Source: an uncultured Hyphomonadaceae bacterium (lineage in GTDB: Bacteria; Pseudomonadota; Alphaproteobacteria; Caulobacterales; Hyphomonadaceae). Taken from it: a stretch of DNA of 42,402 bases. A program made the position numbers and the translations under genes. The stretch lies in NCBI GenBank assembly GCA_938011445.1, contig CALLUH010000071.1, positions 1-42,402 on the forward strand. Direction: 5' to 3'. The notes under the pieces are model-generated. The model was given only the letters and a program-made list of their open reading frames with translations. It searched no databases and was not told where the DNA came from. Shown here piece after piece: positions 652-10,198 of the stretch; the first letter of the stretch is position 1, and each line of letters opens with the position of its first letter.

Positions 652-834
652 ATGACAACCGACATCATGACGATCCGCGAAGTCGCTGAGTACCTCAAGA
701 TCGCGGAGAAGACAGCTTATCGCCTTGCGGCAGAGGGCGAGTTGCCAGGGTTCAAAGTGGGCGGAAGCTGGCGCTTCCAACGAAATGAAATTGATAAATG
801 GATAAAGGCGAAACAGGGCAAAGTTGATGAGTAA
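652..834 (+). CDS. Excisionase-family helix-turn-helix DNA-binding protein
   Basis: This 60-residue protein is almost entirely a MerR/excisionase-type winged HTH. The motif TIREVAEYLKI begins around residue 7, is followed by a second helix KTAYRLAAEGELPG, then the wing FKVGGSWRFQRNEIDKW. The family includes phage excisionases and small transcriptional regulators. It is first in the five-gene operon, with an AGGGG ribosome binding site 6 bases upstream of the ATG, and its stop overlaps the start of the next gene. The position suggests an operon regulator, which in restriction systems often delays nuclease expression. It could instead be a relic of the mobile element. The fold call is firm; the role is inferred. 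Confidence 0.85.
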   Translation: MTTDIMTIREVAEYLKIAEKTAYRLAAEGELPGFKVGGSWRFQRNEIDKWIKAKQGKVDE

Positions 835-3800
835 TTCGTTTTTTGAAGAACCGATTCTCAATTCGCCCTATGAGGAGCCAGCACGCCATCATGCGCTCGA
901 TGGAGAAGGACAGCCAACCGATCTGCCGCCGATAGCTGGGCGTCGCCCATCCGCACTCCTTTCACCAATTCCTAAGTCAAAGAAGCGTCGATCAAAAAAG
1001 GCTGATGACGAACAGCAAAAACTGAAATTGCATGTAGATGACGGGGTGTCATCTGAAGATCAGGAATATAACCCGACACCCATCATCAATGATATTCGCA
1101 CGCAACTAAAACAATGGCGCGCGATTTCTAATCCGCAGGATTGGGGAGTAACGCCAGCAACGGCCCGCTTGCTTCAACACTGGCGCAGTCATGAATTTCA
1201 TGGCATTCGCCCATTCTTTTGTCAGATTGAGGCTGTTGAAACTATTATCTGGCTGACGGAGGTTGCTCGAAGTCGTCGAAGCGCAACCAATGTAAAGAAT
1301 AAAAACCGCGAACGTCGAATTTGGGATCACATTGAGAACGCCAACGCTGGCGCCAATCCAGAGCTGTTGCGGCTCGCGCTTAAAATGGCAACTGGCGCTG
1401 GTAAGACGACTGTAATGGCTATGCTAATCGCATGGCAAACGATCAATGCCGTTAGATCACCATCCAGTAAGCTGTTTACGCGCGGGTTCCTGATCGTTGC
1501 GCCGGGCATTACAATTAAAGACCGGCTTCGAGTCCTTCAGCCCAGCGACCCTGATAGTTATTATGAAAGCCGTGAATTGGTTCCGGCCGATATGCTGACC
1601 GATCTCGCTAAGGCGAAGATCGTCATTACCAATTACCATGCCTTTAAGCTCAGAGAGTTGTTGGATGCGAAAAAGACAACACGCTCTTTGCTGCAAGGCC
1701 GAAACGAGCCGATCCAGAGTCAGGAAACCGAAGGGCAAATGGTTCGCCGCGTCGCGGATGAGCTAATGGGTATCAAGAACATCATCGTGATTAACGATGA
1801 GGCTCACCACTGCTACAGAGAGAAACCGGAAAGCGAAGAAGGTAAACTAACAGGCGATGAACGCAAAGAGGCGGCTGAAAACAGCAAAGCTGCCCGGCTC
1901 TGGATTAACGGTATCGAGGCGTTCAAACGCAAACTCGGTGTTCGCACGGTTTACGACCTGTCAGCTACACCATTTTTCCTGAGCGGATCTGGCTGGGCGG
2001 AAGGTACACTCTTCCCCTGGACGATCAGTGATTTCTCACTGATGGATGCGATTGAATGCGGAATTGTAAAGCTGCCGCGCATTCCCGTGGATGATAACAT
2101 ACCCGGTGCAGAAATGCCTGTTTTCAGGAATCTTTGGGATCACATAGGAAAGGATATGCCAAAAACCGGCGGCCAGACCGGTGACCCCAACTCAATTCCG
2201 GATAAACTAAAAACAGCACTTCACTCTCTATACGGACACTATGAAAAGGTTGCTGACGCTTGGGAGCGTGAGGGCATAGAAACCCCGCCTGTTTTTATCG
2301 TTGTTTGCAATAATACAACGACGTCCAAACTGGTTTACGAGTGGATTGCTGGATGGCAGCGCGACAATGAAGACGGAGAACCCATCACCCAACATCGCGG
2401 CAACCTGCCTCATTTCCGTAATTTTGACCAATATGACGAGCCGCTCGCCAAACCGAACACACTGCTAATTGACAGTAAACAGATTGAAAGCGGTGAACTC
2501 GACGAAAACTTCCGGGAAATGGCAGCCCCGGAGATCGACAAATTCAAACGCGAGCGAAAGCAGCGCGGCGAACATGGTGAAATCTCAGACTCCGAATTGC
2601 TCCGGGAGGTGATGAACACCGTCGGCAAGAAAGGCCGATTGGGAGAGCAGATACACTGCGTTGTTTCCGTCTCAATGCTGACGGAGGGCTGGGACGCCAA
2701 TACGGTCACGCATATTTTGGGCGTTCGTGCTTTTGGCACGCAACTACTTTGCGAACAGGTGGTTGGTCGCGGCCTGCGTCGTCTTTCCTATGAACTTAAT
2801 GAACATGAGCGCTTTGATAGTGAATATGCCGACATTCTCGGTATCCCGTTCAACTTCACCGCAAAACCAGTCGTCGCTCCACCGAAAGCGCCCAAAAAGA
2901 CAACACATGTCAAAGCGATTAAAGAACGCGAGGCGTTGGAAATTTCGTTCCCTCGTGTCGTCGGCTACCGCGTTGATCTGCCAGAGGAGCGCTTGAAAGC
3001 AGACTTCACCGAAGAGTCTTCCTACGTGATCGACCATGAAATGATCGGCGCCAGCCAGACTGATATGTCTGGCATTGTTGGTGAGGGACACACACTTTCG
3101 CTGAAAGAGGCGCAAAATCTTCGCCCCAGCACCATCGCCATGAATCTGGCGAAAGACGTGCTTAACCGCCACTTTGTCGATGAGGATGGGGAAGCCAAAT
3201 ATCATCTCTTTGGACAGATCAAAGGCATTTGCAGACGCTGGATTGATGAAGGCTATTTGAAATGTCCGGGCGATACCGAACCCTGGATGTTGAGTTTCTA
3301 TCCCGAGATCGCAGCCCAAGCGACAGAGCGGATTGTCACCGCTATTGTCCGTGCTGGCGACGGCGAAGCCCAAGTCAAAGCCGTGATCGACCCCTACAAC
3401 CCAACAGGCTCAACGCGGCATGTCAGTTTCACAACCACCAAGGATGTGCGCGAAACCGATCCTCGCAAATGCCATGTGAACTATGTGGTCAGCGATAGCG
3501 ATTGGGAAGCCGAGTTTGCCCGTGTCGCTGAAAACCATCCCAAGGTTTTGTCTTACGTCAAAAATCAGGGTCTGGGCTTCACCGTGCCCTACAAGGACGG
3601 TGATGTGGCGCGTGAATATGTGCCTGACTTTATCGTGCAGGTGGACGACGGACGCGGGCCTGACGATCCGCTCAATCTCATCATCGAGATCAAAGGTATG
3701 AAGAATGAGCAGGTGAAGCTCAAGAAAGAAGCCATGACCGAAAAATGGACGCCGGGCGTAAATGCGCTGGGCACCTATGGTCGATGGGCCTTCGATCAGT

Positions 3801-3886
3801 TCGACAGCGTGTTTGAGATTGATGACGATTTGAAAGCACTGATTGAGCGGGCAGTAGACAACAAGAAAAGTGAGGGGGACGACTAA
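827..3886 (+). CDS. Type III restriction-like Res subunit: DEAD/DEAH helicase with PD-(D/E)XK nuclease
   Basis: About 1019 residues, the size of type III restriction Res subunits. Counting from the ATG, Walker A ATGAGKTT is near residue 188, the DEAH box NDEAHH near 323, motif III LSATP near 378, and motifs V-VI (EGWDANTVTHILGVR to QVVGRGLRR) run about 620-652. The C-terminal YVPDF (about 931) and IIEIKG (about 952) form the D...EXK nuclease core. Type III enzymes translocate or slide on DNA and cut when two unmodified sites meet. The start overlaps the HTH gene stop (ATGAGTAA); an in-frame TTG one codon earlier is less likely. Its stop overlaps the mod ATG by one base. Unlike classical mod-res operons, res comes first. 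All catalytic motifs look intact. Confidence 0.9.
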   Translation: MSNSFFEEPILNSPYEEPARHHALDGEGQPTDLPPIAGRRPSALLSPIPKSKKRRSKKADDEQQKLKLHVDDGVSSEDQEYNPTPIINDIRTQLKQWRAISNPQDWGVTPATARLLQHWRSHEFHGIRPFFCQIEAVETIIWLTEVARSRRSATNVKNKNRERRIWDHIENANAGANPELLRLALKMATGAGKTTVMAMLIAWQTINAVRSPSSKLFTRGFLIVAPGITIKDRLRVLQPSDPDSYYESRELVPADMLTDLAKAKIVITNYHAFKLRELLDAKKTTRSLLQGRNEPIQSQETEGQMVRRVADELMGIKNIIVINDEAHHCYREKPESEEGKLTGDERKEAAENSKAARLWINGIEAFKRKLGVRTVYDLSATPFFLSGSGWAEGTLFPWTISDFSLMDAIECGIVKLPRIPVDDNIPGAEMPVFRNLWDHIGKDMPKTGGQTGDPNSIPDKLKTALHSLYGHYEKVADAWEREGIETPPVFIVVCNNTTTSKLVYEWIAGWQRDNEDGEPITQHRGNLPHFRNFDQYDEPLAKPNTLLIDSKQIESGELDENFREMAAPEIDKFKRERKQRGEHGEISDSELLREVMNTVGKKGRLGEQIHCVVSVSMLTEGWDANTVTHILGVRAFGTQLLCEQVVGRGLRRLSYELNEHERFDSEYADILGIPFNFTAKPVVAPPKAPKKTTHVKAIKEREALEISFPRVVGYRVDLPEERLKADFTEESSYVIDHEMIGASQTDMSGIVGEGHTLSLKEAQNLRPSTIAMNLAKDVLNRHFVDEDGEAKYHLFGQIKGICRRWIDEGYLKCPGDTEPWMLSFYPEIAAQATERIVTAIVRAGDGEAQVKAVIDPYNPTGSTRHVSFTTTKDVRETDPRKCHVNYVVSDSDWEAEFARVAENHPKVLSYVKNQGLGFTVPYKDGDVAREYVPDFIVQVDDGRGPDDPLNLIIEIKGMKNEQVKLKKEAMTEKWTPGVNALGTYGRWAFDQFDSVFEIDDDLKALIERAVDNKKSEGDD

Positions 3887-6786
3887 TGGCGCGAAAACCC
3901 AAAGCACCAAAACAGGTTGAAACCCTGACACATGAAAATGCGAGCCGGAGGAATATTCCGACGGCGGAGTTGCAGTCCACGGCAGAGCGGCTGGAGGAGC
4001 AACATCCGTTTGAGCCGGTGACGTATGAGCGTGCCAACCCGCTTGACAAGGGTGAAAAACGCGAACGTGACGCAGACCTTGATCCGCAGATTGTCTGGAA
4101 GGGAACGAGTATTCGCCTAACCGACGACCAAATTGAAGCGCTCAAAGCTGGCGAAAAAGTTGAACTGGGCGATGCGCAACTGGTCTGGCGCGGCAAGGAC
4201 ACGCAAGACTGGTCCGATCTCGTGGTGCAGGCGCCGCCGATCTACGTGCAGGAGAAAATCCACCCGAAAGCCATCATTGAGGATTTGAAACGCCAGACCA
4301 AGGAACGGCGTGATGATGACAGCGGCACCTTTGATCTGTTTGAGGATTTCAACGGTCTTGACCCGGAAGCCAAAACCGAATTTTATCAACACGACCAGCA
4401 TTGGCAAAACCGCATGATCCTCGGCGACAGCCTGCAAGTCATGGCGAGTCTTGCCGAACGCGAAGCCTTGCGCGGCAAAGTGCAGTGCATCTATTTCGAT
4501 CCGCCTTATGGGATCAAATTCAATTCAAACTGGCAGGTGTCTACGCGCTCGCGGGATGTGAAGGACGGCAAGCTGGATCAGATTACGCGGGAACCGGAAC
4601 AAGTGAAAGCCTTCCGGGATACGTGGAAGGATGGTGTTCACTCCTATCTAACCTACCTGCGTGATCGCCTTACTGCTATGCGGGATTTGCTTACAGAGAG
4701 TGGTTCAATCTTTGTGCAAATTGGAGATGAGAATGTCCATCGTGTCCGTGCTCTGATGGATGAAGTTTTTGGGGAAGAGAATTTCGTTGCTCTTATATGT
4801 TTTCAAAAGACGGGGGGGTTAGTCTCTGAAGGCGTAGTTCAAACGCTAGATTTTATCTTATGGTACTCGAAAGTTAGAGAAAAAACAAAGATACGTCAGT
4901 TGTATGACCTAAGAAGAGCCGGTGATCCATCTTTGGAGCGTTATGATCTAATCACGGCCCCATGTGAGCCTCCAAGACGAATAACAACACTCGAAAGAAC
5001 GAATGGTCACGATAAAGAATTATTGAGAAGCCAGTTAACTTCTTTAGAATCGGATAACCCTAGATTCGAGTTTTTATTCCAGGGAAAGCCTCTGAAGCAA
5101 AAATGGAAAACAAACCTCAAGGGCTTAAATAGGCTCAACTATGCAGGGCGCATCCACAAGCCTGCATCCACGGCCAGATATATTCGACATGTTGAGGATT
5201 TTTCTATCATACCTATCACAGATCGATGGGACTCCATGCAAATTGGAACGAGTTTGAACTATGTAGTACAGACATCAACTACTGTTGTTCAACGCTGTAT
5301 ACTCATGGCCACCGATCCCGGTGATCTAGTGCTCGACCCAACTTGTGGCTCTGGCACAACAGCGACGGTTGCCGAACAATGGGGGCGGCGATGGATTACC
5401 ATAGATACATCGCGTGTTGCTCTCGCACTGGCTCGTACCCGCCTGATGAGTGCGCGCTACCCTTATTACTACCTCGCAGACAGCTCTGACGGACGAGAAA
5501 AAGAACAGAATATTTCTGGACAAATCCCGCCTGATACTCAAACCCAAAACGATATTCGCCACGGCTTTGTCTATGAACGTGCGCCGCATATTATGCTCAA
5601 AACGATCGCGAATAATGCCGAAATAGATGTCATCTGGGAAAAGTGGCAGCAGACGCTTGAGCCACTGCGCAAAGAATTAAACGATATTCTCGATAAAGAC
5701 TGGCAGGAATGGGAAATTCCGCGTGAAGCTGATGCGAGTTGGTCAGATAATATCGCGGCGGTTCATGCAAGCTGGTGGGATGCCCGCATCAAACGGCAGC
5801 AGGAAATCGACACATCCATCGCGCAAAAGGCGGATGTCGAATATCTCTATGATCGGCCCTATGAAGACAAATCGAAAGTCCGCGTGGCTGGCCCCTTCAC
5901 CGTTGAAAGCCTCTCGCCGCATCGCGTAATCCCCGCCGATGAAGACACATTGATGGATGAGATCAATGCGGTTGAGGGCAATCGCCCACGTCCGAAATCC
6001 GGCCCAAGCGCCGCGCCCGCACAAGACTTTGCGACGATGGTGCTGGAAAACCTCAAATCCGCTGGAGTCCATCAATCAGATAAGCAAGATCGCATTGAAT
6101 TTACGGCAATGGAAGGCTGGCCGGGCGACTATATCGCCGCAACCGGCACCTATGAACAGGCCGGCGTTGCGAAACGCGCAGCTATTTTCATCGGCCCTGA
6201 ATTTGGTTCCATCACCCGCTCAGACATTATGGCAGCGGCGCGCGAAGCGAATGACGCGCGTTTCGATGTCTTGATCGCCTGCGGTTTCAACTTCGATGCG
6301 CATTCGTCCGAAGTGGACAAGCTCGGTCCATTGCCGATCCTGAAAGCCAAAATGAATCCCGATCTGCATATGGCGGATGATCTGAAGAATACCGGCAAGG
6401 GTAATCTGTTTGTCGTATTCGGCGAGCCGGATGTCGAATGGGACTTCGACAAAGACGGCAACATTATCGTCGAGGTGTTGGGCATAGACGTGTTCGATCC
6501 CAAAACCGGCGAAGTCCGCGCCTCCGGCAAGGACGACATCGCGGCTTGGTTCATTGATACGGACTATAATGAAGAGAGTTTCTTCGTGCGCCACGCCTAT
6601 TTTATGGGTGCGAATGATCCTTACAAATCGCTCAAAACCAGCTTGAAAGCAGAAATCGACGAAGAAGCCTGGGCAACGCTTTATCGAGACAAGTCCCGGC
6701 CTTTCATGCGCCCCTCTACAGGTCGCTTTGCCGTCAAAGTCATCAATCATTTCGGTGATGAAGTGATGAAAGTGTTTGGGGTGTAG
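3886..6786 (+). CDS. Site-specific adenine DNA methyltransferase, type III Mod-like with long C-terminal extension
   Basis: At 966 residues this is much longer than a usual type III Mod (roughly 600-700). The catalytic DPPY motif is at residues 205-208, inside YFDPPYGIKF. The SAM-binding motif DPTCGSGTT follows at 484-492. DPPY before the SAM motif is the beta-class arrangement typical of N6-adenine Mod enzymes, so the target recognition domain lies between them. That segment (about residues 300-475) is coded by clearly AT-richer DNA than its flanks. Residues from about 560 to the end form an extra region of unknown function that may contact the Res partner. It is coupled to res through TAATG. 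Its presumed job is to protect host sites and to direct Res. Confidence 0.9.
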   Translation: MARKPKAPKQVETLTHENASRRNIPTAELQSTAERLEEQHPFEPVTYERANPLDKGEKRERDADLDPQIVWKGTSIRLTDDQIEALKAGEKVELGDAQLVWRGKDTQDWSDLVVQAPPIYVQEKIHPKAIIEDLKRQTKERRDDDSGTFDLFEDFNGLDPEAKTEFYQHDQHWQNRMILGDSLQVMASLAEREALRGKVQCIYFDPPYGIKFNSNWQVSTRSRDVKDGKLDQITREPEQVKAFRDTWKDGVHSYLTYLRDRLTAMRDLLTESGSIFVQIGDENVHRVRALMDEVFGEENFVALICFQKTGGLVSEGVVQTLDFILWYSKVREKTKIRQLYDLRRAGDPSLERYDLITAPCEPPRRITTLERTNGHDKELLRSQLTSLESDNPRFEFLFQGKPLKQKWKTNLKGLNRLNYAGRIHKPASTARYIRHVEDFSIIPITDRWDSMQIGTSLNYVVQTSTTVVQRCILMATDPGDLVLDPTCGSGTTATVAEQWGRRWITIDTSRVALALARTRLMSARYPYYYLADSSDGREKEQNISGQIPPDTQTQNDIRHGFVYERAPHIMLKTIANNAEIDVIWEKWQQTLEPLRKELNDILDKDWQEWEIPREADASWSDNIAAVHASWWDARIKRQQEIDTSIAQKADVEYLYDRPYEDKSKVRVAGPFTVESLSPHRVIPADEDTLMDEINAVEGNRPRPKSGPSAAPAQDFATMVLENLKSAGVHQSDKQDRIEFTAMEGWPGDYIAATGTYEQAGVAKRAAIFIGPEFGSITRSDIMAAAREANDARFDVLIACGFNFDAHSSEVDKLGPLPILKAKMNPDLHMADDLKNTGKGNLFVVFGEPDVEWDFDKDGNIIVEVLGIDVFDPKTGEVRASGKDDIAAWFIDTDYNEESFFVRHAYFMGANDPYKSLKTSLKAEIDEEAWATLYRDKSRPFMRPSTGRFAVKVINHFGDEVMKVFGV

Positions 6787-6792
6787 GCGCTT

Positions 6793-7704
6793 ATGTTTAA
6801 TCTCTTGATGAGTGGTAATGACGAGGCGTTTCGGGGCGAACCTTGGACATTGGAACGCAACAGAGTGTTCGAATATACCAGCGACGCAAACGCGGCACGG
6901 TTTCGTGATTTAACGCCGGAAACCCTCGAAGAATTGTATCGGCTTCCATCATTGATCGCCTATGAAAGACAATGCAATCAGGCCGCGCGGTTGGGTAAAA
7001 TAGACCGGATTCGAATTAGGCAAGCTGAGATCAGAATTGAATATTCAATTATCCCAGGACTGCCGGAAATTCCGAGTGAACAGTTGTTTGGTCTCGAATG
7101 GGAATTGGATATTCAAGGTTTTGAACAAAACAGGACACATTGGGCGATAAAAGACGTTGATTTACGTGCGGAACTCATCGCTTCAAATATCATTCAAGAG
7201 GCTCAGTTCCAAGGATTGCCAGCACAGTTTCAAGCGCTTTTCATGGAGAACCAGCCAGGTCCAGAGCTTCACGTTCAACCCTCGGTGTTCCGTATTCCCG
7301 ACGCCGCCCAAGAACCGAGTATAGTTTCGGTAATGATCCCATTTGATGCTGCATTTAATCCGGTTTTTGAAGCAATTCAAAATGCCGGTCAACAAATTGG
7401 CCTGCGTGTGTTGAATGCAAATCAAGTTTGGGAAGAGACAGAAATCATTCAAGATATATTCTCCCTGATTTACCGCTCCAAGTTCGTTATTTGCGATTTT
7501 AGCCAGAGGAACCCAAATGTGTTCTACGAGGCTGGTATAGCTCATACTTTGGGGCGGCCCGTAATACCTGTCGTTCAAAATGCTGCGCATATTCCATTTG
7601 ACTTGCAACATCATCGGCATGTGATTTATCTGAATAATGCAGAGGGGCGAGATAGGCTGATCGAAGAAATTTTACCTCGCATGAGAAGTTTGGCGGCGGG
7701 GTAA
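6793..7704 (+). CDS. Possible nucleotide-processing effector: C-terminal nucleoside 2-deoxyribosyltransferase/TIR-like domain
   Basis: 303 residues. Residues 177-300 resemble the nucleoside 2-deoxyribosyltransferase-like fold: SVMIPFD near 179-185, then FVICDFSQRNPNVFYEAGIA at 231-250, then a GRPVIPV strand. In this superfamily the glutamate of the NxFYExG motif (here E246) is the catalytic nucleophile that attacks N-glycosidic bonds, and the aspartate of the CDFS strand (D235) lines the pocket. The first 170 residues match no family I recognise and may be a sensor. The gene starts 6 bases after mod and ends 4 bases before the UvrD gene. It is visibly AT-richer than both flanks. I infer an NAD- or nucleotide-cleaving effector, or a nucleotide sensor. 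It could also be a TIR-like ligand-binding domain. Confidence 0.7.
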   Translation: MFNLLMSGNDEAFRGEPWTLERNRVFEYTSDANAARFRDLTPETLEELYRLPSLIAYERQCNQAARLGKIDRIRIRQAEIRIEYSIIPGLPEIPSEQLFGLEWELDIQGFEQNRTHWAIKDVDLRAELIASNIIQEAQFQGLPAQFQALFMENQPGPELHVQPSVFRIPDAAQEPSIVSVMIPFDAAFNPVFEAIQNAGQQIGLRVLNANQVWEETEIIQDIFSLIYRSKFVICDFSQRNPNVFYEAGIAHTLGRPVIPVVQNAAHIPFDLQHHRHVIYLNNAEGRDRLIEEILPRMRSLAAG

Positions 7705-7708
7705 TAAA

Positions 7709-9829
7709 ATGAAATTTCTTCTTGCCGATACCTTCCAAACCGCGCTGGCCAAGCTGACCAATGATGAACAGAAGGCAGTCAAACTAACTGTCTTTGATCT
7801 CCAGCAAGACCCGTCAAATCCGGGGCTAAAGTTTCATCGTATCGACAAATCTAAGGATGCGAATTTCTGGTCACTACGGGTCAACCGCGACATTCGACTG
7901 ATCGTTCATAAAACCAAGTCGAGCTTTCTTGTTGCCTATGTGGATCATCATGACGATGCCTATAAATGGGCGGAGCGCAGGCGCATCGATGCACATCCGC
8001 GCACTGGTGCCGCGCAGATTGTTGAAGTGCGTGAGCGCGTCGAAGAGATCACCATCCCGAAATATGTCGAGGCAGAGACGCCCGAAGTCCCGATGGCTGC
8101 CGAAGCCCCGGCGCGTTTCTATCCGCCGCTATTTCTGAAACTCACAAATGACGAATTGCTCAGCGTCGGTGTGCCGGAGGATTGGCTTGAGGATGTGCGC
8201 AATGCTTCGGAAGACAATTTCCTTGATCTGGCTGACTATATTCCAAGCGAAGCGGCGGAAGCCTTGCTGGATTATACGGCCACTGGCCAATTAGTTGTTC
8301 CCGGCGAAGCTGGTGCGGGAATTGATCCGTTCGCGCATCCTGATGCGCGTCGGCGTTTTCGCGTCATGGAAAATGTCGAGGAGCTGGAACAGGCGCTCAA
8401 CTATCCGTGGGACAAATGGGCGATATATCTGCATCCGGCGCAAAGAGAGTTGGTTGATGGCAATGTCTCGGGTCCGACTCGCGTGGCTGGTTCAGCAGGA
8501 ACGGGAAAGACCGTTGTGGCGCTGCATCGTGCGGCCTATATTCTGGGTTCGAATAAAGAAGCCAAACTTCTGCTGACCACATTTTCAAGCCCGCTTTCCA
8601 ATGCGCTTGAACATAAGTTGAAACTCTTGCAGTGTGATGACCCAAATCTCGATCATCGTGCATCTATCCGGCCTTTTGAGGGAATAGCGAAAGAGCTTTT
8701 CACGCTCATCAATGGTCATGACCCCAAAATGGCGCGACAAGAGCATGTCGTTCCGGCCCTCGCGCAAGCGGCTAAAGAACAAGAATTGGAAGGGTTTACA
8801 GATCGCTTTTTGATGTCTGAATGGCGATGTGTCGTGGATGCCTGGCAAATTGATGGGTTAGACGCATATGCTCGCGTCCCCCGATTAGGACGGAAAAACC
8901 GATTAGGAAGTCGCCAGCGTGAGAGGCTATGGCCAGTCTTTGAGCGGGCTAGGGCAATTCTGGCGGGTCAGCATAGATATACACCTGCGAGCGTTTTTGG
9001 GAACGTCGCCGCATATTACAAAGACCGTCCAGTTAAGCCTTTCTCCCACATTATTGTTGATGAAGCACAAGACCTTGGCGTGCCGGAACTAAAGATGCTG
9101 TCAGCCATAGCGCCAAAAGAACCAGAGGCGCTATTTTTTGCAGGTGACTTAGGACAACGAATTTTCCAGGAACCGTTTTCATGGCTTGGACTGGGTATTG
9201 ATGTGCGCGGGCGTTCGCATACCCTCAAAGTAAATTACCGAACATCGCACCAAATTCGTCAATCAGCGGACAAATTGCTTCCTGCGGTGGTGCGTGACGT
9301 GGACGGCATTGAAGAGGATCGCCGAGGCACAATTTCAATTTTTAATGGCCCCGTTCCTGACGTTCAAATTCACGACAATTCAGAAGATGAAATCCGTTCA
9401 ATCGGTTTGGTTATTCATGAAGCGATAGATGATGGAATGCCTGCTGAAGAAATCGGCGTTTTTGTTAGGTCTGTAGATGAACTTTCACGCGCAAGAAAAG
9501 CCGTCAATGAAGCTGGACAGACCCCGCTAGAGCTTTCCGACCGGGTTGAAGATAGAACCGGCCGTATCGCAATAGGCACAATGCATCTAGCGAAAGGTCT
9601 GGAGTTCCGTAAGGTGATCGTCATGGCGTGTGACGAGAACATTCTTCCCGATCAGGATAGGATCGACACAGTTGCGGATGAAGTTGAACTTGATGAAGTT
9701 TATGATACCGAGCGCCAGCTATTTTATGTCGCCTGTACAAGAGCAAGAGAAAGTCTGACGGTATCGGGGGTTGCACCAGCTTCTGAGTTCTTTGCCGATA
9801 TGGAAGGCAATGAAAATGGCGGTCCCTGA
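7709..9829 (+). CDS. UvrD/Rep-family helicase with N-terminal RelE-like toxin domain
   Basis: 706 residues. Residues 1-95 look like a RelE/YafQ-type ribonuclease fold, with the hallmark FWSLRVNRDIRLIVHK at 53-68. Residues about 235-706 are a superfamily 1A helicase: Walker A GSAGTGKT at 261-268, motif II VDEAQD at 450-455, motif III AGDLGQ at 478-483, motif IV NYRTS at 509-513, motif V TMHLAKGLEF at 624-633, and motif VI YVACTRAR at 673-680. The helicase motifs look functional. No antitoxin gene is adjacent, so the RelE part may act as a specificity or regulatory module or a latent toxin. The start lies 4 bases after the previous stop. The last codons and the TGA lie inside the convergent tRNA-Arg gene. 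Confidence 0.88.
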   Translation: MKFLLADTFQTALAKLTNDEQKAVKLTVFDLQQDPSNPGLKFHRIDKSKDANFWSLRVNRDIRLIVHKTKSSFLVAYVDHHDDAYKWAERRRIDAHPRTGAAQIVEVRERVEEITIPKYVEAETPEVPMAAEAPARFYPPLFLKLTNDELLSVGVPEDWLEDVRNASEDNFLDLADYIPSEAAEALLDYTATGQLVVPGEAGAGIDPFAHPDARRRFRVMENVEELEQALNYPWDKWAIYLHPAQRELVDGNVSGPTRVAGSAGTGKTVVALHRAAYILGSNKEAKLLLTTFSSPLSNALEHKLKLLQCDDPNLDHRASIRPFEGIAKELFTLINGHDPKMARQEHVVPALAQAAKEQELEGFTDRFLMSEWRCVVDAWQIDGLDAYARVPRLGRKNRLGSRQRERLWPVFERARAILAGQHRYTPASVFGNVAAYYKDRPVKPFSHIIVDEAQDLGVPELKMLSAIAPKEPEALFFAGDLGQRIFQEPFSWLGLGIDVRGRSHTLKVNYRTSHQIRQSADKLLPAVVRDVDGIEEDRRGTISIFNGPVPDVQIHDNSEDEIRSIGLVIHEAIDDGMPAEEIGVFVRSVDELSRARKAVNEAGQTPLELSDRVEDRTGRIAIGTMHLAKGLEFRKVIVMACDENILPDQDRIDTVADEVELDEVYDTERQLFYVACTRARESLTVSGVAPASEFFADMEGNENGGP

Positions 9830-9893
9830 ACGATTCGAACGTTCGGCCTCCACCTTCGGAGGGTGGCGCTCTATCCAGCTGAGCTAAGGGACC
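9817..9893 (-). tRNA. tRNA-Arg (anticodon CCG) with encoded CCA
   Basis: On the minus strand a complete cloverleaf folds: 7 bp acceptor stem, 4 bp D stem with the AGCTGGATA loop, 5 bp anticodon stem CCACC/GGTGG around loop CTCCGAA (anticodon CCG), 5-base variable loop, 5 bp T stem GAACG/CGTTC with loop TTCGAAT, discriminator G, then genomic CCA at 9819-9817. It should read arginine CGG codons. Its 3' end overlaps the final 13 bases of the convergent UvrD-family gene. tRNA 3' ends are favoured integration sites for genomic islands, and here the 3' end faces the island. Confidence 0.96.
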
Positions 9894-10004: not shown

Positions 10005-10071
10005 TCACCCAAATCACCGCTTGACATCCTGCTTCGGAGGGCAGCGCTCTATCCAGCTGAGCTATGGGTGC
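10005..10071 (-). pseudogene. Degenerate tRNA-Arg (CCG) remnant
   Basis: On the minus strand, positions 10071 down to about 10032 form a good tRNA-Arg 5' half: acceptor GCACCCA, intact D arm and anticodon loop CTCCGAA. After the loop the sequence departs. The 3' anticodon strand is altered, no T stem-loop with GGTTCGAATCC is present, and only an acceptor-like TGGGTGA at 10011-10005 remains, which could be chance. The total would be 67 rather than 74 bases. It differs in the stems from the intact copy at 9817-9893, so it is not a simple duplication. It may be the host's original gene, broken at the anticodon loop when the island arrived. Confidence 0.8.
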
Positions 10072-10198
10072 GGACTGATTTGTCATAGTCCAGCTTCAGG
10101 CCAAGGGCAACTGGCCCGAGGGAGTCTTCTCGGTGCTTGCGCTCGGTGTGCTTGTGACGATAGGTTTGCCAATGGCTAGATGCGGAAGTTGGGTAGAT

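Follow-up and report, generated by a model that had tools for sequence, protein, structure and literature searches.

The window, i.e. the whole 42,402-nucleotide stretch of DNA analyzed here, carries an anti-phage operon of the restriction type, in which a BPTD_3080-family restriction endonuclease, a type III-like DNA methyltransferase and a fusion of a RelE-like domain with a UvrD-type helicase (hereafter RelE-UvrD) follow one another on the plus strand. The endonuclease (824..3886, +; 1020 aa), a type III Res-like helicase-nuclease, scored 1294 bits against NCBIfam NF046055 (cut-off 800), and the methyltransferase (Mod; 3886..6786, +; 966 aa) was identified by PADLOC MTase_III (1203 bits) and PF01555. 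The two correspond to the Mod and Res helicase-nuclease components of type III restriction-modification by profile only, in the BPTD_3080 branch, with an activity that is predicted. Upstream of the endonuclease lies a 60-aa protein (652..834, +), named by eye as an excisionase-type HTH protein. The gap between methyltransferase and RelE-UvrD is occupied by a gene for a 303-aa protein (6793..7704, +), the C-terminal part of which (180-286) is TIR-like (PADLOC TIR effector, E=4e-11). The RelE-UvrD gene itself (7709-9829, +; 706 aa) has an N-terminal RelE fold followed by the helicase, and runs into a tRNA-Arg(CCG) gene on the minus strand (9817..9893, ARAGORN).

By sequence alone, the identity of the RelE-like domain was weak. 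The Pfam HigB-like_toxin match to residues 25-81 reached 20.6 bits, below the cut-off of 27, the profile match to RelE3 had an E-value of 0.05, and a phmmer search with the domain against PDB gave no match. An AlphaFold2 model of the domain, based on an alignment of residues 1-115 from 96 homologues (pLDDT 93.4), consists of a strand, two helices, an antiparallel sheet, a helix with H81 and Y85, and an extra beta-hairpin, i.e. the beta-alpha-alpha arrangement followed by an antiparallel sheet that characterizes the RelE/ParE (BECR-fold) superfamily. When the PDB was searched by fold with this model, all of the top 50 matches belonged to the RelE superfamily, the best one being RelE 3bpq (E=5e-5, TM 0.77 by target), with YoeB 2a6r, YafQ 4mmj (TM 0.74) and Cami1 8phj among the others. 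Residues 1-106 (7709..8026, +) are thus clearly predicted to adopt the RelE/YoeB/YafQ fold, an assignment to which conservation also contributes, and a chance likeness to RelE behind the weak Pfam score is ruled out by the fold search. Within this domain, FWSLRVNRDIRLIVHK represents residues 53-68. The earlier note had placed the domain at 7709-7993 (residues 1-95); the domain stands, but its end moves to residue 106 (~8026), as the extra C-terminal hairpin (91-106, motif HPxTGxxQ) follows the helix where stand-alone toxins stop.

In the full-length AlphaFold2 model (pLDDT 86 overall) the domain is followed by a flexible linker of residues 107-146 (8027..8146, +), which is disordered between the domains, with pLDDT below 50 at 110-123. 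The remainder, residues 147-706 (8147..9829, +), is a UvrD/PcrA-type SF1A helicase, as indicated by Pfam (UvrD_C 67.7 bits, UvrD-helicase 47.9 bits), the UvrD/PcrA fold in the PDB fold search, and invariant motif columns. Walker A (GSAGTGKT, 261-268), Walker B (DEAQD, 451-455) and motif VI (VACTRAR, 674-680) are all intact. SLFN11 was a weak match in the same fold search, and the Pfam SLFN helicase match fell just under its cut-off. The fusion of a RelE-like domain to a complete SF1A helicase, proposed in the earlier note, is thus borne out by the fold search, the pLDDT of the domain and the Pfam UvrD scores.

Profile alignment with hhalign paired H43, R57, D61, R63 and H81 with YoeB E46, R59, E63, R65 and H83, at a probability of only 1.5% against the single sequence; no usable alignment was obtained against single RelE and YafQ sequences. 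In YoeB, E46 is the general base and H83 the general acid, RNA contacts have been reported for E46, R59, E63, R65, H83 and Y84, and YafQ H50 has been proposed as the base equivalent of YoeB E46 (PMC3814384). As the score against YoeB is weak by itself, we infer the mapping of these five residues from fold, motif and conservation together. H43 (codon 7835..7837, +), placed by hhalign to YoeB and by conservation at the YoeB E46 / YafQ H50 position, would be the general base. The codons for R57 (YoeB R59), D61 (YoeB E63 / YafQ D67) and R63 (YoeB R65 / RelE R61) are found within 7877..7897 (+), where the equivalences of D61 with YafQ D67 and of R63 with RelE R61 were judged by eye. H81-D-D-A-Y85 (7949..7963, +) would supply the general acid and a substrate-orienting aromatic residue, as in YafQ H87...F91 and YoeB H83/Y84, and H81-x-x-x-Y85 agrees by eye with the H-x-x-x-F of the YafQ HSELF motif (PMC7584586). 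All parts of a YoeB/YafQ-type site, i.e. a base (E/H), an Arg pair, a C-terminal His and an aromatic residue, are accordingly present in an alignment that is statistically weak.

The same RelE-UvrD fusion has previously been reported as ArmD of ARMADA type II (Bell et al. 2025, PMC12458937), and the homologues fell into BPTD-type and ARMADA-type clades. H43, R57, D61, R63, H67, H80, H81, D82, Y85 and W87 were all identical in 108 of 115 BPTD-type homologues. ARMADA-type sequences have E43 in 12 out of 13, a swap that parallels the general bases of YafQ and YoeB, and keep R57, R63, H81 and Y85 in all 13; H81 and Y85 are invariant in both clades. The loss of catalytic residues in all homologues, which the earlier note had taken as the mark of a merely structural module, was not seen, the residues being kept in nearly all of them. 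Conservation is strong also outside the putative active site. In the BPTD-type clade, mean pairwise identity was 69.2% in the RelE domain versus 57.1% in the helicase, and the RelE value was the higher in 6510 of 6546 pairs; these pairs share ancestry and are thus not independent of one another, but are uniform in direction. ARMADA-type sequences do not follow this pattern (RelE 41.8%, helicase 46.3%). The dN of the RelE domain was ~0.4-0.8 of that of the helicase, and lower in six out of six tested pairs. Judged from these sequence comparisons the RelE domain is under strong constraint, and its conservation above that of the motor makes a vestigial domain unlikely. A solitary or decayed toxin remnant could be ruled out, as the fold and the catalytic set have both been preserved, and better so than the motor.

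Around 106 loci were gathered from GTDB species genomes and IMG/VR, using the best 80 matches, which favors close, full-length relatives. Going by record labels, the matches listed come from Alpha-, Gamma- and Deltaproteobacteria, Planctomycetota, Acidobacteria, Bacteroidota, Nitrospirales and others. The core order is conserved, with the BPTD_3080-family endonuclease first, then the type III-like methyltransferase, and RelE-UvrD last: among the matches listed, 62 loci had at least 9 kb of upstream sequence, and of these 57 had the methyltransferase and 55 the endonuclease, in the same order. Two of the remaining five (L072 and L040) have a methyltransferase ~10 and ~19 kb upstream, respectively, in L040 a BPTD-type one in the same record. 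When 385 genomes were sampled evenly across the class, the endonuclease was found in 23, 12 of which had RelE-UvrD. The gene is missing from two loci (L152 and L154) with endonuclease and methyltransferase intact, and is therefore not obligatory for the restriction core. Conversely, L066:6474-12121 has RelE-UvrD apparently without the restriction core, and with a second UvrD-like helicase upstream; no methyltransferase was found in that genome. Another configuration occurs in two genomes of one genus (G463 and G366), where RelE-UvrD is not downstream of the methyltransferase and is instead convergent with the endonuclease, ~67 bases apart. Our literature search found no paper naming BPTD_3080, and no description of RelE-UvrD in this operon context.

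The operon is otherwise fixed, but in L030-L135 it is interrupted by two hypervariable intervals, slot 1 separating the endonuclease from the methyltransferase and slot 2 the methyltransferase from RelE-UvrD, which contain from 0 to ~19 kb of other genes. Among the matches listed, slot 1 was empty in 24 of 60 scored loci and slot 2 in 12 of 87, and the slot proteins of at least 100 aa (n=173; L030-L135) formed 103 sequence clusters. Known defence systems, whole or in part, are among the slot contents, e.g. IetA and IetS (L081), HerA (L056), Dsr1 (L089), HamB (L053), QatA and QatC (L072), and ZorA- and ZorD-like proteins (L040). The slots can thus hold other defence systems such as Zorya-like, Qat, Hachiman, IetAS and Dsr1. 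In L040:2033-9969, the Zorya-like set (ZorA-, MotB-like and ZorD-like) is situated directly upstream of RelE-UvrD. The slot-2 cargo of the window, the 303-aa TIR-like protein, clusters among slot proteins solely with the slot-2 protein of L068 (8264-9175; Sphingomonadaceae), a 46% identical relative in the same slot. For BREX, auxiliary effectors embedded in the system have been documented (PMC12839542); our literature search found no report of them in BPTD_3080 operons. Such nested, exchangeable cargo offers a clue to the way in which defence islands are assembled.

The stop codon of RelE-UvrD (9827-9829) falls within the 3' end of tRNA-Arg(CCG), pointing to the border of an element that integrated here, and the last codons of the gene differ from those of the closest relative (L030). 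Integration of an element at this tRNA gene is consistent with these features, and defence elements integrating into tRNA genes have been described by Bell et al. (PMC12458937). A second, partial copy of the tRNA 5' half is found at ~10026-10072, with TAGCTCAGCTGGATAGAGCGC occurring exactly at both 9866-9886 and 10044-10064; together with the stop codon inside the tRNA gene, this copy suggests one or more integration events. Furthermore, 26 IMG/VR contigs classed as viral (L110-L135) carry a BPTD-type RelE-UvrD, most of them together with the operon, a hint that it may travel on prophages or satellites.

An antitoxin normally keeps RelE toxins in check. No antitoxin gene is found beside RelE-UvrD, which has the TIR-like gene (6793-7704) upstream and the tRNA downstream, nor does the window hold an antitoxin gene that would make this a type II toxin-antitoxin system. 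Pfam and NCBIfam profiles recognized no antitoxin domain inside the fusion. In four relatives (L096, L109, L117 and L135), endonuclease, methyltransferase and RelE-UvrD adjoin or overlap at intergenic distances from -40 to 18 bases, which leaves no place for an antitoxin gene. The missing adjacent antitoxin remarked on in the earlier note is therefore confirmed by the neighboring genes and by these four loci. An overlap of 4 bases between the helicase gene and its predecessor is seen in L026, an ARMADA-type locus. Among the matches listed, no general family of downstream ORFs was found, and the 60-aa HTH protein occurs upstream of the endonuclease in only 12 of 53 loci, and is therefore not an obligate antitoxin. 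A hidden antitoxin among the neighbors could be ruled out, as neither the 303-aa gene nor the HTH gene is conserved across loci and there is no general downstream family. Gerdes 2025 omitted multidomain RelE-fold proteins without identifiable antitoxin (PMC11980606), which fits such an antitoxin-free class being little studied.

ARMADA II requires ArmD for its defence, which is abolished by K266A in Walker A of this protein, and this defence is direct and non-abortive, with cells remaining intact and no metabolic shutdown (PMC12458937). From this and from what the computational analysis shows, namely the identity of the domains, the retained catalytic set, the operon context and the lack of an antitoxin gene, we infer how RelE-UvrD may cut, on what, and how it may be gated. 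We give about even credence to an ArmD-like nuclease, probably an RNase, that is positioned or gated by its motor and controlled within its own protein or complex. In such a protein, a flexible linker would tether a nuclease of RelE fold, its active site of the YoeB/YafQ type, to a UvrD translocase. The motor would load on DNA ends or on ssDNA made when the restriction enzyme or the phage opens DNA, thereby bringing the active site of the RelE domain to nucleic acid close by. RNA would be the most likely substrate, i.e. nascent or translating phage transcripts, cut via 2'-OH acid-base chemistry. As some YoeB/YafQ toxins cut DNA in vitro, ssDNA or nicked dsDNA would be possible as well. ARMADA protects without host shutdown, and broad mRNA destruction is therefore unlikely. 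The fused motor, the extra hairpin or partners encoded in the operon would exert control, in place of a dedicated antitoxin gene.

Two other readings appear unlikely, to a similar degree. In one of them, the RelE-fold domain would be a DNA nickase that nicks ssDNA or dsDNA while phage DNA is being unwound by the motor, and the protein would amount to a compact helicase-nuclease. With AtYoeB, cleavage depends on dose to about the same extent for RNA and for DNA (PMC7878887), the YafQ-family TfiT nicks DNA through its HSELF motif (PMC7584586), and the operon partners are DNA-acting enzymes. However, the conserved residues are those that RNases use for 2'-OH acid-base chemistry, a separate conserved acidic metal-binding cluster is not evident, and DNA cutting by a RelE fold has been seen in vitro only. 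According to the other, the fold would be a non-cutting binding module through which the helicase might e.g. dock to RNA, to the ribosome or to a further subunit. ParE toxins have the same fold without catalytic residues (PMC11980606), and the non-abortive ARMADA defence (PMC12458937) as well as the conservation beyond the active site would suit a module of this kind. Pure docking, however, need not keep R57, R63, H81 and Y85, the matches to an RNase active site that are invariant or nearly so in both clades, nor an exchange of E and H at the position of the base, as between YoeB and YafQ. A ParE-type gyrase poison is less likely, as the RNase residues are retained. Very improbable, lastly, is a latent suicide toxin, a form of the reading in the earlier note in which a general mRNA interferase would be restrained by the restriction core or the helicase and released on infection to stop growth: a RelE domain without antitoxin gene, the Cami1-like precedent (PDB 8phj) and human SLFN11, an RNase with a helicase domain that is described as ssDNA receptor and antiviral endoribonuclease in human cells, speak for it, but ARMADA II with ArmD protects directly and non-abortively through a motor that is needed (K266A), leaving cells intact and metabolism running, which argues against a suicide toxin released into the cell (PMC12458937).

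The motor-positioned nuclease may be part of a wider pattern, which we put forward more tentatively: an antitoxin-free RelE nuclease set by a UvrD motor could be one solution common to two restriction-type systems, and in the BPTD_3080 branch the common effector or fail-safe of a carrier operon with many cargos. The finding of an antitoxin-free RelE-helicase fusion across several bacterial phyla raises the question of whether a DNA motor can replace an antitoxin. A RelE active-site mutant is not among the mutants listed for ArmD (PMC12458937), and our literature search found no report of one in any RelE-UvrD-type protein; the residue map (H43/E43, R63, H81 and Y85) thus offers point mutations bearing on the chemistry of the ArmD-type RelE half.

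Among known systems, the ribosome-dependent mRNases YoeB, YafQ and RelE have the fold and the putative catalytic residues in common with the window domain, which differs from them in its helicase fusion, its extra C-terminal hairpin and its lack of an antitoxin partner. In Cami1 (CARF-RelE), the RelE domain is controlled by a fused domain. As another RelE domain in a defence effector (PDB 8phj), Cami1 may serve as a precedent for a fused controller, by analogy and not by membership, its controller being a cyclic-oligoadenylate sensor as opposed to a helicase. The helicase part resembles GajB of Gabija (PADLOC GajB, E=1e-22) and other UvrD-like defence helicases. GajB partners GajA, and relative to GajB the RelE domain is an addition. 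Schlafen SLFN11 is described as likewise combining an endoribonuclease with an SF1 helicase domain and an antiviral function, and would be a precedent for that pairing; with its unrelated RNase fold and eukaryotic origin the likeness is analogy only, not membership. The closest tested relative is ArmD, with which the window protein shares an N-terminal RelE-like domain joined to a GajB/UvrD-like helicase, i.e. the architecture of the ArmD family, and a position as the last gene of a methyltransferase-containing defence operon without antitoxin gene. By sequence the window protein is an ArmD homologue of a sister clade with other operon partners, the fusion itself being already known: the two are ~30% identical over their whole length, and the clades separate with a FastTree support of 0.999. 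A plain ARMADA system is ruled out by these partners, namely the BPTD_3080 endonuclease and type III-like Mod versus the BrxHII-like, PglX-like and YprA-like proteins of ARMADA. The two also differ in H43 versus E43, and the window-type operon has its two cargo slots. A particular case is L025:9995-12022 (Allomeiothermus), where RelE-UvrD is found in an ARMADA-type operon, yet has H43 and D61 and groups with the BPTD clade in the tree, though not inside the clade made up of BPTD members only (support 0.89). This suggests gene exchange between ARMADA and BPTD systems.
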